Positions 29,201-41,200 of a stretch of DNA of 64,000 nt are shown here, one piece after another. The stretch is from Ricordea florida (lineage: Eukaryota > Cnidaria > Anthozoa > Corallimorpharia > Ricordeidae). The notes under the pieces are model-generated. The model made no database searches and was not told the DNA's origin. It saw nothing but the letters and a program-made list of their open reading frames with translations. How positions within the stretch are numbered: position 1 is the stretch's first letter; the number at the start of each line of letters is the position of its first letter. The position numbers and the translations under genes were made by a program. The stretch lies in contig OX453282.1 in assembly GCA_949710005.1 (NCBI GenBank), positions 16,937,945-17,001,944 of the forward strand. Reading direction: 5' to 3'.

Positions 29201-32200
29201 GGAGAAATAAAAAGAACAATCAATGTAAATAACAATATTAAAGTACTTCCGGGACAACATTTGTTTCCTCTGCTCGACGTAACGTTGATTTAATAAGATT
29301 TTTCACATCAACCGTTTTTCATTATCTTTAGAAACAGAAATCTGGAACATTGCCAAAAACAGGCGTTGTTCCGTGCATTTCGTCCCGCTTCCTGACTTCA
29401 GAAAGTAACCCGAAATACGTCTTTGTCTTCCTTTTGATATGATATATCTGTAGACTGTCTCCCATGTATATGCTAAAATTCTAATCATTCTATTTCAGTT
29501 TTAGTTGAAAGTGGCTTGAGAATGTCAAACGCCAGTTGAATCGAATAGTTGTTAATTATCGCGTGTTCAGCTTATATGTTGCTCTCAGAATAATGAAAAA
29601 AAGACCGTGCAATTTGAACAACTTTGAATAACTGTCTTTCATTCTGATAGTGTCAGATGGCAGCCTTAAGGGTACTTTAAAACGATATTGCATTTTCGCT
29701 GTCATTCAGTCCTGCTTAAGAGTCATCAGTAAGTTTCTTTAAGGTGGTACCGGAGGCTAAAGTGACCTTTTTTTTTGGCCGAGATTTTTTTTTCAGCATG
29801 AAGATAATCTTGAAAGGTAAACATATGCCAAGTTTCAGGTCGGGGAATAAAATCCCGTCCGAGATATAGGCACGCGAAGTTTCGTTTCTACGGCCATTTT
29901 CGCGGCAAAAATACGAGCTCCATGCTGCGTTCGATACAGTTGTGTCCCGCTGTGGAAGTCCCCAAGGATGGTCTTGCTGACAGCTCGATTCAATAAAACC
30001 TTGTAATCTGAAATGTAACACCCTCTTTGATCATGGCAGCTGAAGAAGCAACACGCGCGCTTGACCGTCATTTCAAAGAGAACGGGTAAATATATCGCTT
30101 GTTGTAATGAAATTTCTTTTCTTCTTGTCACTTATTTGCTAAGTTAACAATGGCGTTCTTGTCATCCAGTTTGCAAGGAGCTCCTCCAGGCCTTCAGAGA
30201 TTGCTTCGTGGGTTCAGCTTGAAAGCTGGCGAAACAAGCGAAGAAGGGAGGCGCCGTTTTTACCGCCGAATTTTTGGAATCTTGTGGGTAAGTACCTCCC
30301 ATTTTTTGCTCTTGGTTCTCCCGGTGAGAACATTCGATGCTGTGCTTACCTTTCAACTGCCTTTTCTTCCTTTGTTCTTTTTGTTAGTTGATAATTTCAG
30401 CCAACAATCTCCTTGTTCTTCCACGTGGCACGTTCCCGCATATAGTAGCGTCTTGTTTTTACCACATCGCAATCTCAATTCTACCCATTAGCGCTTTCTC
30501 ACTTGTTGAAGACGCACAAAACCTGGTTGTGTTGGAGTGTAATATGTTTTTGCATTTTTATTGCCTCTACAGTATGGCAACAAAATCGGCGAGGGAAAGT
30601 ACCGTGGGAAGGCCCTTCCCACCTATGTCTATCCGGATTGCTTGAAAGAAGCAATCCGATCAATCATCGATGAGGGACTCCGGGACTATCTGAATCCTGA
30701 AACTTCAGCAGTAAGATATCATGTTTTGTTGTTGTATTAGTTTTGCCTCATTGAAAAATTCACGTTTATGTAAACATCGATAAACAAATTAGTGCTTCCC
30801 TTCAGCAAAATTTAAACATTAGTTATCTCATTCCTTCTATCTTGCCTTTAGGTGTACAAGGTTACCCTGACAGACCTAAGGGGTGCAAAATGGCCAGGGG
30901 ATGCCTGATTTTCTTCTTCGTTTGTAATGTTCTATATTTTTTTAGCAATAAAATGAATTGAAAAGAAATGCCTGTCATCATCTATTCTCATGAGTACGCT
31001 GAACCTGAAGTCCTTCCTTTCATTTTTACACACTCACGTTGTTTGATACAATAAATTATTACACCATACATGTATGGAAGAGCCAATTTTTATTACTTTA
31101 TGTACAATCATGTCTCACCAAAAATTACATTTACCAGCAATATATACCTAGGTACTCTTACTTTCAGAAAGTCAGATTGTGGAAGAATGTAAACTAGATT
31201 CAAAACTAGATCAAGTCTTACTGGCATTGTCCTAAAAATTATGGTAATAAAAGACAAGACTCCTAGAGGTATATGTTGTGTAAAAACTACAATATTCTTT
31301 TTTTTTTCTAATTTTTAACCATTTTGCAAATACATTGGAAATTTGATTTGAATCCCAATAACTCAACCCTTCAAGGGAAATCGAAAAACGTTCTAGTTTT
31401 TGAAGTTCCCAAATTATCAGGGGTAAGATCAATAGGAAGTATGAGTTATCTGGATTCAAATGTAAACACTTACATAGTGCTACAGCAAACTGATGTTAGT
31501 GCTAATCTAAAATTAAGATAATGACTGACAACACCAGTCCTTCAACTTCAGTCCTCATAAGCACTTCCCAAGGGTTTGGCAAGACACCCTACCCACCCCC
31601 CAGCACACACACAAGGGAAAAGAAATACTATGCAATAGGACACATTGCTTTCAGGCAAGATTTCATTTAGGAAACTGATTTAGAAAATCATAATCAATAT
31701 TTGAAAGCATGAAAAAGCTAACAACTTCACAGCTCTAGTACAAATTCACCACCCCTCGACAGCTCCCATGTAATGCTGTACTCAAACAAATGCACAAAAT
31801 TTGGATTGAAATGTTGGCATTTGCAAATGCCATATTTACCTCGATCAATACTACTTAGGACTGCTCTTGATTTTCAAGCACATCATAATTTTTTTAAACA
31901 GAATCCTCTCATTATTCATTTTCGAAACTATTGATATGTGGTAACTAAGGCTATGTCAATTATCAGCTAAGAAAAGACAAAATGTAATTGGACCTCACTT
32001 TTCCATTGCACAAATGTATGAAGTACTACACAAATTTTGTGCTGCAAGACATTAATATTTGTTTATACTCAATTATTTCCTGTTTTATAATTGTTCAATA
32101 AACTTTAGAATTCTGAGGTAATAGCAATGAACAAGAGCAGAACCCTAATAACACTAGACTACTCAAACTTTAAACAGAAACCAACTACAGGTCACAAAGA

Positions 32201-35200
32201 AATCTCTTCATATCCTTAGGAAGTAAACTTTCACATATCTTAGAAGTAAACCTCTTCACATTTTGTTTCATTTCTTGGTTCATGTTACATGGAACTTTCA
32301 TTCAATAAGTGTTTCAAACTCTTTGCCAACATACATTTTAATCAGTTATTTGGCATTATTCTCTTTTATTAAAAGGACAGTCTCTGTGGCTTTTTCTCAT
32401 GTGAGTTTTGCTACCACACCACTTACAGCTCTTTCCTCCTACTTCAAGACTTGCTCCTTCTGGGGCAGAAACTGGTTGCAGCACGGGAGGGGGTCGTGCA
32501 CTTCCATCAGCAATTGCTGTTTCTGTCAGCATTACAGCTTCTTCCTCATTGCAGGGGTCATCTTCATCATCATCTCCATAAGTATGCCTGATACGGCAGC
32601 TCTTTACATACTTCTTTCTGAAGTAAAACAATAAACAATGCATGATAAATACAGTGTATCTTTGTGTCAAATTTGTGATAATGTTCATCAGGTCAACTAT
32701 TCCCTCCATCCTCAATTCTTCTTTTTTTCCCTTCTTACTTTACAAATCTAAAAATGATATTTTTTACCTCAGTGTCTGCTCCTCAGTTCTGTCAATTTTT
32801 GATTTTACACGCTTCTTTTTACCCTCCTCAGTCCTCTTGTTTTCCAACCTTCTCATTCTTTCCGCATTATCGACTGTACACTGCATGAGATAAAAGTGAT
32901 AAATAAGGTTAATAGTTTTCATTGGGAAAAAATAAACAATAATGGAAACTTCTAATTCTCATAATTGTTTTGATCTCAATTCACACATTATATACATTTG
33001 AGATGCAAGGGAATATTGAAATTAGCTAGTAAACAACTTTAACTGCTCACTCCTTGAAAACATTCTAGAAATTAGAAAACATACCCTTTCTTGGACACCA
33101 TAGAGCACTGGCAAGCCCATTCTGGAATACAGGTCCACAATCCAGTGGTAAGTGGGTCCCATCCTTGTGAAGCACCACGTCATGTTTGCTTGGATTAAGC
33201 CGAGATTAGTTGATGCGTAGTAGTGCTTCTGGTGCAAGTTGATGTCCTTAGCCCTAAACTTAGTGAGGACACTAAAGGTTGACTCTGGCAGGTTCGAGTG
33301 CCCCTTACCCAAGCCTGGATCAATCACCTTCTCTGCACCAGCAGCCCTCTCTGCACATTCTATTTCGTAAGCCATAGCATGGAACTCACATTTTAAAACA
33401 TGAGCAGAATGGTATTGCTCCCCGGGACATTTTAGTTCCTCATAAAACCCATCCTCATCACATTTACACCCTTTACAGCTGCATTTCTTTACCGGGTGGA
33501 ATGAACAAGAACCCCCCTCCCACTCATGGATGTCACGTGCCTGATATTTTCCCAAGCAAAGCATTGTTTGCCTGTATTTTTCGGGGTCTTTACCTGCATG
33601 CACCATTGCACAGTAATGATTCCGCTTTGCACCCTGGATGAAACCTGGGCTCATACATCCACATGAAGGTTTGCTGCTTGTCGCAACATAAGTGTGCTTT
33701 TTCCCAGCACAACAACACTTCATTTCTTCCATACCGGGGTAATCCTTCTTGTGATTGTCAATAAATCCCTTGCTAAAAGAACTCTTTGTTTGGAGCTCTT
33801 GCAACTTCTTCCCGTGAGCCCTCCCAACGTGACCCCCACACAGCATTATTTTGGACTCTTGTTCATCAGAAAAAGAGTACCTGAAACCCTTTGCAGAAGA
33901 TGAATCCGCATCCTGCCAATTGACTTCCACTTTTAATCCCTCCTCTTTGGCTTTTCCCCACAAAACCTGGGTCAAGTGTCCCTCTGCAGCCTTTGAAGTA
34001 CCCTGCCACAACTCTTCATTACAAATATTATCTGCCCCGCGCATTGACAAGTGCCCATAATAGAGGAGACCCCCCGTCAAATAATTCTTTATAATAAAGG
34101 TACAGTTTTGGCTAAAATGCCCCCTTATTTGCCAGCACCCATCGCATGTTGTCACCCCCCTTGACCAACTCCCCAACTGACCATCTGGAAGGGCTTTCAC
34201 ATAATCTTTCTCCCTCTCGCACATTTCGTCGAGTATGCCCTTGATGTGGGGATAAGCAAGGTCGATGATTTCTATAAATGGCTTGTCAGATAAAACACCC
34301 AAACCCAAACCCTTCCCCAAAGTTTTCCTATAAGAGGCATAGTTATGCCCACTTATGAAAAAAGCTAAGGATAGGGCTAAGGACACCAGATGACGGCGTG
34401 ACTCTGCGGCTAGTTGGCTGCTTTGATAGCCTATTTCTGCTGTCCAGCATCCATTGCAGCGGAATAGAAATTTCATCGCACCACCTAATCCCCTCTTTTC
34501 ATTTGCCACAAGCACTAGGTTACCTAAGGGGACATTTAGTTCATTGTTTTTCACATTGTTATATGTATCTAAGAATATACAATAATAATTAAATAATAAC
34601 ATTACTAATGATTTCGAATGAAGGGGATACAGAAATTGAATCAACAAAAACTATTTTCAGAGGGAAAAAATTAAGTATCATATATCAATCAATCAGAAAA
34701 TTATATTTCTAGTTTGTCTAGTTTGCTAGGAATTCTTAGGCACTCTTTTACAATGCCCCAAAATACAAATTTACTCGTATGGTGGTGTAGCAGGTGGGAA
34801 CTACAGCTAAAGTTCACAGGTACATAAGCTTATGTATGCAGAATTTGGCACCTTTATGGCAAAGTAGTTTTTATTTGAAGAATATTATTATCAGACTTTT
34901 TCAAAGGCATAAACTCAAACAAATGGATACGTACCTTTACACCTTCCCTCATTTGATGGACATTTGAAAAATTGATTGAATTGCCTCACAAAATTCACGA
35001 TGCTTGAGGTCGTAGCAACAAACAGTCCTTCTGGAACTTCGATGCTGAAAACAAAAAGATTTGAACTCTTGTAAACAGGTGATCCACTCATTTGAGAAAA
35101 CATGTATTAGCCATCTCATGTCGAATGGTAAACAAAAAGGAATACACGAGACCAGGAGCCGAATACAGTATGAATTCTTGGCTCCTGGTGAGAATATACA

Positions 35201-38200
35201 CTGCATTCAATATTCACAGAAACTTATCAGGAAAAATTACCCACAAATGAATACATGTGATAGCTTGACAAGAACAAAAAATAACACTTCAAATAATCAC
35301 AACTAATCCCGCCAACAACGGAAATCAGGATTTTTTTAAATAAAATTCAGATGACTTACTGTAAGCTACTGATAGAAATACTATAAGATAAAAGCTCACC
35401 ATTCGTCCTTGATTGCTTGAACACTTCGCTTCTCTGGCGGTTCGTAGTCGGTGTCATCATCTGAGGACAAAGCATCCGACGTCTTCGCTTTTGGATCACG
35501 CTCGATGCGCTCATCACAATGTCGTACTGACTCACACACAAATGCGTCGAAATTCCCTTCTGCTTTAAGCTGTCTCTCGACCTCTTTGCTGCTTTTGACC
35601 GACTTTCCAGCAGGGTTTGTATATCTGTAGAAAACTTTCAGTCCTGTTGACGATGACTTCAATTTTCTTTTGTCTTCGATTACTTTCCAACCAGCTTGTC
35701 GCAACTTTTCAAAATCAAGGACAATTCTTGAGTGTGATCCCGAACCTCGAGCTTCGTTAGCACGCGCAGACTTTTCCTTAGTCGCGTTGGAATGCTTTTT
35801 TGGAGGCATTTATCGCTGTTCTTGTAATCTCTGCTCGCGTCCCGTTCGTTCCCTCGAAATGACTGCGTTTTGTCTAATTTCAACCTGTCAACGCTGACTG
35901 TTGGGGTGCCGTTGCTATGCAGAGGTGTCATTGTTTATAATGCCTTGCGCCTGATTGGTTTCGCGCGAAAAATAGCTCCCCGTAAAAGGATGGAGGGCCC
36001 AAAATAGGGCCATTTCAAGCGATTTACCGCTGTTAACTTTTATTGTAGACGTCAAAACAATATGGCTGCCATCGAAAAGAAGCTAATGTGAACTTTTGAG
36101 CCCGTTTTCTTCAGTTTAAGCTCGATTTTTGGCCAAAAAAGACATGTTATTTTAAAGGTGGTAGTTTTTGAAATTATATTATTTTTTGTAGTTTTACTGG
36201 AAAGACACGAAACTTCGCAGAGATCGAATATATACGTGAACGAACTATTATGTGGGAATACGTCAAATGCCTACAAATATAAGGCCCGTGGCAGGATGAA
36301 ACATTTTTGAAAGTTACGAAACAATATTTCTTGACATATCTTTTATTCTATTTCTTATTCTTTGACGTACTCCCACATAATTCTTGCTTTAAGTGATACA
36401 AATAAATTTACCAAAGCTTATTGAAGTCCAAGGAATTCTCTTTGAGTTATATCGAAAAAAGTAAAATGTAAAGGTTTCGACCACACCCATAAGAAGATCA
36501 TATTACAGAAATTCTTTTCATTCTTTTGGAATAAAACTATTTTTGAGAAAATCAGCACAAATAAAAGATTCACCTGTGAAGATACGATTGCGATTGAACA
36601 ATTATTTCTACAGATTTTATGTATGTAAATATGTGCTAAAAATGTTGAAATTAGCCTCCGGTACCACCTTAAATCATATAGAGCTTTATTTAACCAGGGA
36701 GCACCTTCTAAAATCTGTTCTCCCAAGAGTCCCTGACATAAATTGATACAACACTAGAATAAATATACAATACATTCACATAAATATGAACACAAAATAA
36801 TATGAATACATTACAAATATCGAATAAAATAAGGTAAATGATTGAATGATTACAATACGAGTTCGCTGATTTGCCATTTGAAGCTTGATACAGAATCCAA
36901 GTTTTGAATGTTTTTGGATGTGTTCCATAAAGTGATACTAGTGTACCTGAAAGTGCGTTTCAGGTATTCAGTTCTTGGTTTAGGTAAAATAAACTTATCC
37001 TTCTTTCTACTATTAAAACTACGTAATTCCGAGTGACGTAAGTAGTCCGTATCAAGTCCTTTCAGTTGGTTATTTGAGCGTTTATAAAAAAGAATGGCTT
37101 TGTTATACTGTCTTCTCTGCTGTTAAGTCGACCAATTGAGCTTAGCACGTACTGTGGCAGACGGGGTGTAGTTGTCAGCCGAGAGGATGATTCGCGAGAT
37201 TTTGCAGTCTCTGTAGTCATAAAGATGGTGCCTAGCTACATGTGTCCCAGACTACTCCGCAGTAGTCACGTAAGGGCTGAATAGTTGACTTGTACACAGT
37301 ATGGGTTGACGGTAACGAAAGGCAAGGCATTCTTTGAGGAGACCTAATTGATATTCAAGTTCACCTGCCTTACCTAAATGTTTTAGTCAGTTTTAACTCT
37401 TTCCCAGACCCCACAGTGAGCTTGACTTCCTTGGCAGGTTGTGATTTTCGAACTGACAAACGACATCCAGTTGTAAAACAGATTAAGCTGTTCGTACCTC
37501 TACCAAGTCTGCATTGGAGACAGTATTTCTATAAAATGAACAAATAGGCACAACAGCTAAATGTCTATCCTTCCGATTTAGAAATGTCCTGGAATATATT
37601 TATTCTGTTGGTTTCCCCCCTCCCCCGCCCAGCACCCACCCCCCAGCACCCACCCCCCCAGCACCCACCCACCCCACCCCCCCCCCCAAAAAGGATGGGC
37701 AGCACTGGATTATTCAATTCTAAATGGTGGCTTATAGTGGCTTTTAGTAGCTTTCGTATCTGTACATGGTACGGGTTCAGAAAGACATCGTAATTTGTAC
37801 GAATTCACGCCATACAGGAGCCCATTACCAGGAGCCCATTACCAGGAGCGTGATTCTCCCATACTGGGTCTGGCCATCAGCACAGTCGCAAAAGTGTCTA
37901 TTTTTAGATTTCCTTTTTCCGCGAAACAAACAAAGGGTGTCTTTTCTGAACAATCACAATGTGAGATTTATTACGTCACTGACAAAGTAACGTGCAAGAA
38001 AACGCTGTATGGCTCACACTGAATACTCATAAGACTGAAGGAGCTCAAGTCGATTTAAAAGGATGCCAGAAATTCAATCACGGTTTGTGGCTTAGTAATA
38101 TCTTTTATTAAATTTGCTTTTATTGCACGATCGACTTTTTCGTCGTAAAGATAGGAATGGTTAAAGCTGTCTTGGACCACGTAAGTACGGAAAACGGACT

Positions 38201-41200
38201 GTGCCAATAGTTTGTCCGCCATGTTTTTCGCTTCTGTGGCAGTCATCATGGTAATTGCTTTTCGCGGGAAATCGGGATCCAAAAATAGACACTTTTGTGA
38301 CTGTGCTGATGGCAGGATGTACCGTACAATCCTGCTCCTAGTAATGGGCTTCTGGCCATATTATTAGGACAGCTTTCAGTTCAGTTGACTGGTTGACTGG
38401 TGTTTTTTCACCACGAAAGTTAAGTGTTAGCCTAACTAGAAATCAGGGATGAATTTCATAAGCATGAAAAATGTTAACACGCAAATATCAAAGTGGCTTT
38501 GGATCACCGTACGCAGAAACTGAACTGAGCTGAACTGAGTTGGTACAAGGGAAAATGAGGTCAGAGAATGCATTCTCCATACTCATACTAGGTTCCCTTA
38601 CTATGATAAGAGGACAGCATCCATTTTTAGATCTGAAAACTATTTTAACTGACCAACGGCTGATCTCCTTCTCATCACGTCGTTGTAATTTCAATGCGTC
38701 GTGTGGATGTTGTTTCGATTGATCTCGACTTTCCACTTCCGGTATTGGGAAACCGCGCAGCCATGGAACGAGATATAAATAGATTCCGAGCTAAAAATAG
38801 ATTTTGTCCCCTTATCATATCAGACGGGGTTATGTTCTCTTGACTCATTATTTTCTCTTGGTTGGTACGATACGAGGAATTTTTCAGATTTGGAAGGGAT
38901 TTAACCATAATACTGAAATCTGCATAATCCTTTAAATCATATAAAAGCCCAATCCAATGATTGCTAGTACAGTAAATAGAACTTACCAGTCCCAATTTAC
39001 GCTCTGTGAATGCAACCAGTTCAGATTTGTCATTTAAACAAAACACTGCCACATCCAACATCCTCAAATGTTTCGGTGCTGAAAAAAAGGTACTTTAGCT
39101 ACGAAAAAAAAGCTATAAATGCAAAGTAAAAAATATGCTATCTTTTAACTGACAAAGAGGGTCAAACCAAGGAATCGGTGTGGTATTATTATTTAGAGAG
39201 GTTCAGTTGAATAAGTTGTCAAAAGTAATTATAATTGCATTAAAATAATTATAATTAATAATAATTAATTAATAATGAAATAAAATTATAATTAAGGCCT
39301 CAAATTTGCCCTTTCACGTAACAGAATTCCAACTATTGAGATCATCGCTACAGTAGAGGAAGGAATTTCTCCACTTTACCTTGATCAAAAGCTCTTGGTT
39401 AGAGCTGAGGTCATGAGCATTTTGACACCGTCGTGGCAAACCTCCTCCCGAAAACATAAGTCCTGATGACTGAGGACCAGGCTAAAAACCGACCAAAAAT
39501 CTTGATTTTGCCTACCTTTATTTTAAATTTTGATAATGAATTGCTGCTCCGCTCACTGCGCTCACTCCGCAGCAATCATATTTTGGGTGCTTCTCAGTTT
39601 TGGTACAATAATGGCAGGGTTGTCACCAAGATTTCAAGTTGCCGGGTAATTGTTGTTAGTAGCCGGGGAAGTCGCAAGCGGTCATGTCACCCCCTCAAGG
39701 CCCCCCCCCCCCCCACACACACACACACACACACACAACACGTTTTGGTTTAATTTAAGGACGAAAGTAGCCGGGGGTTAGGCTCCGAGTAGCCGGGGGA
39801 AATCCCCGGCCCCCGGTCCTTGGTGACAACCCTGCAATAATGGTAAGTGTCTAACCCTTCATATACCGTGCAAGATCTTACTCTACCCTCAATGTATTAG
39901 GCAAGACGACGTGCAATAGCAGTCCTATCTGATGTACTGTAAGACTCTATGGTGCTGCTGATTTTCATTCCAAACAAAAATAAAAACATACACTGTATCA
40001 TCATATTACGCACTATATCCCCTGAAAATCCACGAGAAAGTCAGTGTCTGAGTCAACGGTCAAATCAGTGATCAGAATACAATAACTCAGTGATCAAAAA
40101 AATTATCGTTTCCCACTAAGACATTACTTACACTACTTGAGTAAATGATGATAAAATCTCACTGCTGAAGTATCGTAAGGCATACTCCACTATTCCACTG
40201 TGTAGGCTATGTACCCTGACAAGTTTCACATCATTACAGTGAAAGTGATTGTTACTTTGTGTGCCAGTTTGCAACACTTTTGTGCCAGTTGGTGTCTTGA
40301 TTGGCAGATTGCTCTGAACACATCGTAAATTCAAATTCCTACTTGACCAGGCTGACGGTTTTTATCGGTAAATGTGGGTACATATGAGAACACCCCATAT
40401 TGGCTTACGTCTGGGACACAATTAACGAAAATTTTTGAAATGGAAGTGAATTAATTATATACAGTGTATGTTGTCCATTAACGGTTTCGTTCTCTAGCGA
40501 GACTAAAATTTTTTACACGTGAATTTATCCCAAATAGAGCTAGTCCACACGCGCAATGAGGTATGGGGTTCTAAGGAAAACTAGCAAACCTTTTTTGCTG
40601 GCGATTGGCTGCAGAGTAATCCAAACCAGCGATTCTCTGGACAACTGAAGTTTAAAATGATGGCTTGAGATGGTTCCATCTTCATCAATAAAGAAACTTC
40701 CTTTTGATTCTATACAATGCCAATCCTATAAAATTTAAAAACAGCAAGTCGTACAACGAGAAATTCACTTCTAAAAAATCCGTTACTTAACAATTAGACC
40801 CGTAGCACTTGAGGGCGAAGGCTCTAATTGATTTAGTATCACCCAACTAGTCGGACAGAAAAAGCAATAATAAAGTTAGCAAATGCAAGTTGAAGACAGA
40901 TTTATTTGGGAATAAAACAAAAGAAAGCGCCACGAATTTCGCTACTCGAGGACTATTACTAACAGACCTCTAGTAGCGTAGCCAATCAAATTGCGGCATT
41001 TGCATTAGTCCACTAGTTGGGTGATACTAATGTATATTACCCGTAATTGAAGATTACAAAATTCCAATTCATACATATATACATATAGTGGCTCGTCCCC
41101 ACGGGGCTTTTCAGAGTCACTTTTTACATTAAACACAACACAACATAAACTCTTTGCTAAGAATCCCAACTGGCGGAAGGCAGACCAGTTGGCTATTTAC

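Follow-up and report, generated by a model that had tools for sequence, protein, structure and literature searches.

A recently mobile, TTAA-flanked transposon of Ricordea florida with an MBD-like domain in its putative Kolobok transposase

The window analysed here is a stretch of 64,000 nucleotides from Ricordea florida (contig OX453282.1). It contains a minus-strand gene (35809-32356) which, when spliced and translated, consists of five exons and 792 codons with no internal stop. The exons join in frame and all four introns have GT/AG borders, which bears out the intact five-exon gene described in the original prediction. This gene is located within a 6.93-kb element (29743-36668) with the ends GGTGGTACCGGAGGC, which also carries a second gene, ORF2 (Table 1). 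The CxxC-H-C motif encoded by exon 5 of the transposase gene found no match in the Pfam scan.

Table 1. Features of the element and of its two genes (positions within the window)
Feature	Position	Strand	Basis or remarks
TTAA target-site duplication, left	29739..29742	.	TTAA at both ends in 10/10 full-length copies
Left terminal inverted repeat, starts GGTGGTACCGGAGGCTAA	29743..29773	+	Inverted repeat; copy alignments stop here
ORF2, four exons (30033-30085, 30170-30287, 30573-30710, 30852-30908)	30033..30908	+	121 aa, convergent to transposase
Transposase exons 1-5	35809-35400, 35044-34935, 34568-33085, 32880-32768, 32617-32356	-	Spliced reading
MBD-like domain, residues 33-94 (fold) / 38-86 (PF01429)	35528..35713	-	Pfam, alignment, model, Foldseek
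PF20700-matching part of catalytic domain	33793..34533	-	Fragment scan, 45.7 bits, fragment residues 12-258
D316, proposed first catalytic Asp (CDGCW)	34141..34143	-	Identical in 5/5 A2 rows; role inferred
D393-A-D395, proposed second catalytic Asp	33904..33912	-	Identical in 5/5 A2 rows; role inferred
C417-G-G-H420, CxxH signature	33829..33840	-	Identical in 5/5 A2 rows; signature as in PMC9587614
E602, proposed catalytic Glu (SNLPES)	33283..33285	-	Identical in 5/5 A2 rows; role inferred
CxxC-H-C zinc-knuckle-like motif, C-terminal, exon 5	32377..32427	-	Read off translation
Right terminal inverted repeat	36638..36668	-	Inverted repeat; copy alignments
TTAA target-site duplication, right	36669..36672	.	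Full-length copies

ORF2 is open and its spliced exons have AG acceptors. Homologous exons were found in subfamilies C (73% identity) and D (55%), and a convergent ORF2 copy lies beside at least 43 of the 56 genomic places in which exon 3 of the transposase was detected; the two-gene layout of the element is conserved. The number 43 is a lower bound, as among 150 ORF2 matches only those covering the third exon (E-values down to ~2e-9) were typed; weaker rows, of which C11:6839502 and C8:18361042 are two, would raise it. The KolX accessory protein resembles the C-terminal (ballast) domain of P2X7, and identity of ORF2 with KolX was considered but found no support: neither P2X7 nor KolX was matched in Pfam or in a PDB search with a three-row ORF2 profile, which returned no P2X7 chain at E <= 10 and unrelated weak matches only. 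No Pfam family matched the window protein or the subfamily D fragment, and subfamily C gave a single weak, unrelated match.

The N-terminus of the transposase is MBD-like in sequence and in predicted fold. With the whole protein as the query, PF01429 was matched by residues 38-86 at 16.3 bits, which is below the cut-off of 21, while exon 1 alone scored 19.8 bits and an 80-aa fragment 21.3 bits. In the exon-1 alignment, PF01429 matched all five subfamily rows (best E-value 7e-5). The structure model of exon 1 was modest overall (mean pLDDT 61.8, pTM 0.39), with pLDDT values of ~77-84 across most of residues 31-90 and one block at 63. Compared by Foldseek, this model retrieved exclusively MBD/TAM domains at ranks 1-40, with a best E-value of 0.037 and no match at E <= 0.001, and ranks 1-27 of VIA-align were likewise MBD/TAM domains. 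Exon 1 alone, when searched against PDB sequences, matched only an aminotransferase (E-value 0.093). The MBD-like domain occurs in five subfamilies of the element, and of 18 loci read in other subfamilies, 17 have the corresponding exon; this reading left out exon-3 places of 70-73% identity beyond subfamilies B and D (e.g. C9:15354884, C4:18661354 and C1:18737406).

The remaining part of the protein had been described as a DDE-type, Mutator-like transposase (PF20700). Scanned as fragments of 249-260 aa, the proteins of three subfamilies reach 44.5-49.1 bits with this family (cut-off 26.5), but neither the whole transposase nor the whole exon 3 (0/5 rows) produced a match. In the proposed profile check, the cut-off was thus exceeded by the 80-aa fragment with PF01429 and by ~250-aa fragments with PF20700, while the complete protein stayed below the cut-off in the former case and unmatched in the latter; with this reservation, the fusion of an MBD-like domain with a PF20700-type transposase in one gene is supported. 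Cysteine residues conserved at columns 284, 286, 302, 304 and 319 of alignment A2, after the CxxH signature and before the last E, form a zinc-finger-like cluster. The model of the catalytic exon was unusable (mean pLDDT 36.4), and a profile comparison with a canonical PF20700 element of the same genome revealed no relation, even though the fragment scans match PF20700.

Contrary to the statement that no inverted ends were seen, the element is bounded by a 31-nt terminal inverted repeat (84% complementary, TTAA not counted). Ten full-length copies (the one in the window and 9 of the 12 copies retrieved) terminate exactly at the positions equivalent to 29743 and 36668, and all of them have TTAA at both ends and unrelated sequences beyond it. 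They differ from each other by 0.24% on average (range 0-0.42%, 45 pairs), and nine of the ten retain an open transposase frame. The copy count proposed earlier gave 56 exon-3 places (from 93 matches, after omission of 36 other-exon or short pieces and of a piece overlapping in a degenerate copy), of which 12 have 98-100% protein identity; there are thus at least 12 near-identical copies in the genome, and the element has spread recently. Given these copies at different sites, the inverted ends and the TTAA duplications, domestication of the transposase as a host gene, which had been left open and with which the stop-free five-exon frame would agree, is ruled out for this locus as extremely improbable. 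A subterminal inverted 16-mer (at 29874 and 36203) was set aside, because no copy of it (with <=1 mismatch) was present in six loci of other subfamilies.

The name given to PF20700 in Pfam, Mutator-like transposase, would imply a Mutator (MuDR/MULE) element. This is very unlikely, since MULEs generate target duplications of ~8-10 bp and not the TTAA found in 10/10 copies; TTAA likewise flanks the genome's canonical PF20700 element (5 of the 6 copies read). Duplication of TTAA is common to piggyBac and the window element, but piggyBac ends carry the motif CC[C/T]T (PMC2872659), whereas the ends described here start with GGTGG, and the transposase matches PF20700 and no piggyBac family; piggyBac identity was therefore rejected on the end motif. 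According to PMC9587614, Kolobok transposons are marked by TTAA, by 5'-RR...YY-3' ends and by CxxH or DxxH between the second D and the last E, and a zinc-finger-like cysteine cluster precedes the last E in all their lineages except Kolobok1. The ends of the window element read GG...CC, i.e. 5'-RR...YY-3', and CGGH lies between the second D and the last E in 5/5 rows. TTAA, the ends, CxxH and the cysteine cluster fit a putative assignment to the Kolobok superfamily. A THAP domain is usual, although not universal, in Kolobok transposases (PMC6004289), and in the Pfam scan of the window transposase no THAP was returned, but MBD only.

The CpG content of the element is uneven. The end regions are CpG-rich (observed/expected ~0.8-1.35) in every profile reaching an end but one (subfamily C copy L053, 0.53 in the first block), and in the middle the ratio drops to 0.13-0.5; it is 1.04-1.23 in exon 1 versus 0.16-0.37 in exon 3. 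Depletion of the element bodies is expected of germline methylation. The insertion flanks have a median ratio of 0.87 (n=10; 7/10 CpG-rich). The corresponding values are 0.77 for 110 1-kb windows of the analysed stretch and 0.80 for six copies of the canonical PF20700 element. The ten flanks, a small sample, show no insertion bias toward CpG-depleted DNA.

We consider it probable that the element is a 6.93-kb Kolobok-superfamily transposon which has moved recently and seems to be autonomous, and that the gene encodes its transposase, whose MBD-like domain binds the element ends in a largely methylation-blind manner. The MBD/TAM-fold domain would occupy the position usual for THAP in Kolobok proteins and would recognise the transposon ends largely regardless of their methylation, and the PF20700-type catalytic domain, by DDE chemistry, would cut at TTAA and then reinsert the element; ORF2 might have a role as well. 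Chance likeness of the N-terminal domain to MBD, the true fold being some other small DNA-binding one with three strands and one helix, is quite improbable, as MBD was the top Pfam match of the window's row, all five rows matched, and the structural comparisons agree; moreover, the six best PDB chains in the exon-1 profile search were all MBD2, albeit with E-values of only 0.11-0.62.

The alternative that the domain is a true methyl-CpG reader, which directs the transposase towards methylated DNA or keeps it away (for target choice or for sensing the silenced state of the element body), would accord with the MBD/TAM fold, with the CpG-depleted bodies and with the single CpG in the end of the window's own element (ACCGGA). 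In MBD2, an Asp, a Tyr and the second Arg contact methyl-CpG. These align with F60, R62 and K72 of the window's transposase, and in the four aligned subfamilies the respective positions are occupied by F/L/H, R/L/T/S and K/N, the canonical residues being absent from A, B and D as well. Of the four subfamily ends read, three (A, C and D) lack the CpG present in the end of the window's element. From the replaced contact residues and the ends devoid of CpG, we infer that binding of the ends may be independent of methylation, and a true methyl-CpG reader appears unlikely. The suggested coupling to methylated DNA thus found no support, and the few flanks gave no hint of a preference for CpG-depleted DNA. 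Somewhat less likely still is a Kolobok lineage in which THAP was exchanged for an MBD fold that continues to sense cytosine methylation, though by non-canonical means, and makes transposase activity or the binding of the ends dependent on how the element is methylated; internally deleted copies, with the MBD exon and ORF2 retained but little left of the catalytic exon, would in that case be methylation-tuned repressors.

MBD domains are mostly regarded as host readers of DNA methylation. Among the 45 PF01429 matches in this genome, 36 lie within copies of the element family, five are host-like (judged by score and isolation) and four are unassigned; as only 5/45 look host-like, it would be wrong to take MBD matches in such genomes for methylation machinery. 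A recently mobile transposon lineage with an MBD-like domain in its own transposase would represent use of this fold by a mobile element. Its diverged pairs of MBD and ends may constitute a natural set for learning DNA recognition without the classic arginine finger, and methylation-sensitive transposition becomes a testable question. No MBD in a transposase was described in the titles and abstract openings searched (Repbase, subscription journals and the genomes of other species were outside the scope), and neither MBD nor methyl occurs as a word in the text of PMC9587614.

Several known systems resemble the element. The MBD/TAM domains of BAZ2A, BAZ2B, SETDB2, MBD2 and MBD4 are alike in predicted fold and in the GW...P.GK...S pattern, but here the domain is joined to a transposase and other residues stand at the aligned positions of methyl-CpG contact. 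The canonical PF20700 element of this genome (L001 type, 2.86 kb) has GGTGG ends along with TTAA in the same 5/6 copies, a CpG-rich start and a depleted middle, as the window element does, and it too has DDE-type motifs (in its case DGTW, GDGDS and CVGH); it differs in having a single-exon frame of 620 aa and no MBD match, and in the genome scan no PF20700 match (117 in total) came as close as 35 kb to any of the 45 MBD matches. Kolobok0, E, D, H and P (PMC9587614) and Xenopus Kolobok (PMC6004289) share TTAA, RR/YY ends, CxxH and the cysteine cluster with the window element. Several Kolobok lineages have an accessory gene, and so does this element, although its ORF2 product, matching neither a Pfam family nor a P2X7 chain, gave no sign of being KolX or any other of the accessory proteins listed for them. 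The transposases differ at the N-terminus, which is usually THAP in Kolobok and MBD-like here.

The transposase gene is composed of five minus-strand exons, which splice, as originally predicted, to 792 codons (2379 nt including the stop), with GT/AG at all four introns. The predicted fusion also holds, as the MBD-like exon 1 lies in the same spliced gene as fragments matching the transposase profile PF20700. Inverted ends, not seen in the original prediction, were identified: a 31-nt terminal inverted repeat (84% complementary, TTAA excluded) bounds a 6.93-kb element. Within it, a subterminal inverted repeat of 16 bases (94% complementary, two CpGs) was found, with no counterpart in six loci of other subfamilies (diverged relatives A-D in the same genome). 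Outside the element lie an inverted repeat of 54 nt (87% complementary) and, around it, more inverted pairs, perhaps another small element. A 90-aa open frame, also outside, may resemble a LINE reverse transcriptase C-terminus.

Coordinates of features in the window
Feature	Position	Strand	Basis
Element	29743-36668		
Inverted ends	29738-29773 and 36638-36673		repeat search of window
Transposase exon 1 (MBD-like)	35809-35400	minus	spliced translation
Transposase exon 2	35044-34935	minus	spliced translation
Transposase exon 3 (catalytic)	34568-33085	minus	spliced translation
Transposase exon 4	32880-32768	minus	spliced translation
Transposase exon 5	32617-32356	minus	spliced translation
Subterminal inverted repeat	29874-29889 / 36203-36218		
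54-nt inverted repeat	37873-38355		
Further inverted pair	37828-37864 / 38319-38355		
90-aa open frame	36850-37122	minus	

The element was compared with 12 further copies in the genome (538 Mb, 48 contigs; the window is C11:16937945-17001944). Nine align over its whole length, ending at window 29739 and 36672 (± a few chance-match bases), and three (L042, L047 and L050) lack the left end; in L042 the loss falls behind an N run, and this copy is cut at the right end too. All ten full-length copies, window included, have TTAA at both ends with differing sequence beyond it, and their mean pairwise difference is 0.24% (range 0-0.42%, 45 pairs). The transposase frame is open in nine of them (L049 has two stops), as is ORF2, the convergent second gene (L041 is frameshifted; L039 and L040 are one codon short). 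Near-identical full-length copies at different sites are the product of recent transposition; a domesticated host gene, which the original prediction had left open, is therefore excluded at this locus by the inverted ends, the TTAA and the copies themselves. A tblastn-type genome search gave at least 93 matches, at least 56 of them to exon 3; of these, 12 share 98-100% identity, a degenerate one has 90% and the others have 70-79%. A 19-base end pattern occurs at least 48 times, 38 of these being exact and 10 carrying one mismatch, and its reversed control 0 times.

PF20700 matched neither the whole 792-aa protein (Pfam scan) nor any of five whole exon-3 rows, but fragments of 249-260 aa scored 45.7 (window), 49.1 (subfamily A) and 44.5 bits (subfamily B) against a cut-off of 26.5. 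The putative catalytic residues D316, D393/D395 and E602 and the CxxH signature C417-H420 are identical in all five alignment rows. The canonical PF20700 element of this genome (L001-L008) is 2.86 kb long, has TTAA and GGTGGCTCGATAGGC ends and is present in at least eight copies, at least 99% alike over the aligned span. TTAA with GGTGG ends was seen in five of six copies read, so PF20700, though named Mutator-like, marks TTAA elements here. Profile comparison of the window family with L001 found no relation; by eye, both share the motif order D-G-x-W, D-x-D-S, C-x-x-H-V and a late E.

Three internally deleted copies (C8:6953131-6957173, C11:375308-379351 and C4:32377887-32382461) keep the MBD-like exon and ORF2 and have no exon-3 match. 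The first (L061), the one copy of the three whose junction was read, lacks window 34092-31206 and hence D393/D395 and E602. The C11 copy has 4044 bases between end matches, against 4043 in the C8 copy, and this match, in size alone, suggests that the deleted form has moved. Deleted P elements serve as repressors; by analogy, and speculatively, the MBD-only forms might do likewise.

ORF2 (four exons, 121 aa) begins near the left element end and heads towards the transposase, and a convergent copy lies beside at least 43 of the 56 exon-3 places. Its middle is 73% identical in subfamily C and 55% in D. The protein has no Pfam match. Kolobok0 elements are described (PMC9587614) as encoding KolX, related to the P2X7 C-terminus; a vague resemblance of ORF2 to KolX/P2X7 was not upheld by profile search. 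Because ORF2 is conserved, our guess is that it may be accessory in transposition.

Of 18 loci from other subfamilies, 17 have the MBD-like exon upstream of exon 3 (L032 lacks it); the exon was read in A, B, C and D and is an old component of the transposase family. In subfamily C, a frame break of the same kind interrupts the middle of the exon in both copies read (L030 and L053), and the subfamily may thus be dying out or rely on others. Scanning the whole genome with PF01429 yielded 45 matches. Of these, 29 are no more than 6 kb from an exon-3 place and 7 are near ORF2 without exon 3; 5, among them the four best, stand isolated and are likely host genes, and the other 4 are unassigned. None of the 45 lies within 35 kb of any of the 117 PF20700 matches genome-wide, which, together with the placement by exon 3 and ORF2, restricts the domain in Ricordea florida, as far as the scan sees, to the lineage of the window element. 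Reading of methylated DNA, as originally proposed, finds no support. In the MBD2 profile alignment, F60, R62 and K72 stand opposite three MBD2 residues that we take to be methyl-CpG contacts: Asp and Tyr in 'KSDVYY' and Arg in 'KKFRS'. At these positions subfamily B (first row) has L, L and K, subfamily D has H, T and K, and subfamily A has L, S and N; the first arginine finger sits in a variable-length loop and has no placement. The fold is kept and the known methyl-reading residues are replaced.

Between subfamilies, synonymous sites are saturated (pS 0.64-0.87); the corresponding pN values are 0.09-0.18 (exon 3), 0.19-0.32 (ORF2) and 0.31-0.46 (exon 1, with 0.25-0.44 for its MBD-like part). 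Judged by these substitutions, exon 3, exon 1 and ORF2 are all constrained; divergence of the MBD-like part outpaces that of the catalytic exon and is similar to that of the remainder of exon 1. The window element has a CpG observed/expected ratio of about 1.0-1.2 at each end and 0.13-0.5 mid-element; in the subfamilies measured, the ratio is 1.04-1.23 in exon 1 and 0.16-0.37 in exon 3. Profiles of window 29743-36668 and of L021, L030, L031, L051-L053, L059 and L001 revealed CpG-rich ends and a depleted middle in the window element, subfamilies A, B and C, and the canonical element (one C copy starts at 0.53), as if bodies had long been methylated in the germline, with ends/promoters unmethylated. 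Among the ends compared, that of the window family holds one CpG (ACCGGA) and those read in A, C and D none; for B, no end was located. The flanks of ten insertions had a median CpG observed/expected of 0.87 vs a background of 0.77, and thus no preference for CpG-depleted DNA was seen in this small sample.

Kojima and Bao (PMC9587614) list four Kolobok marks: TTAA, termini of RR...YY form, C/DxxH, and a zinc finger that lies after the second D and before the last E; all four are present in the window element, the zinc-finger-like site as a prediction, and on these sequence features it is probably of Kolobok type. No THAP was found in the whole transposase by Pfam scan. The reading that we consider likely is an autonomous Kolobok-type transposon, whose transposase would act on its own element, with the MBD/TAM-fold domain replacing THAP as the end-binding domain and binding the ends largely independently of methylation. 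THAP is described as usual in Kolobok transposases (PMC6004289), whereas the window transposase has an MBD-like N-terminus, and it is this domain swap that makes the element noteworthy and of fair interest.
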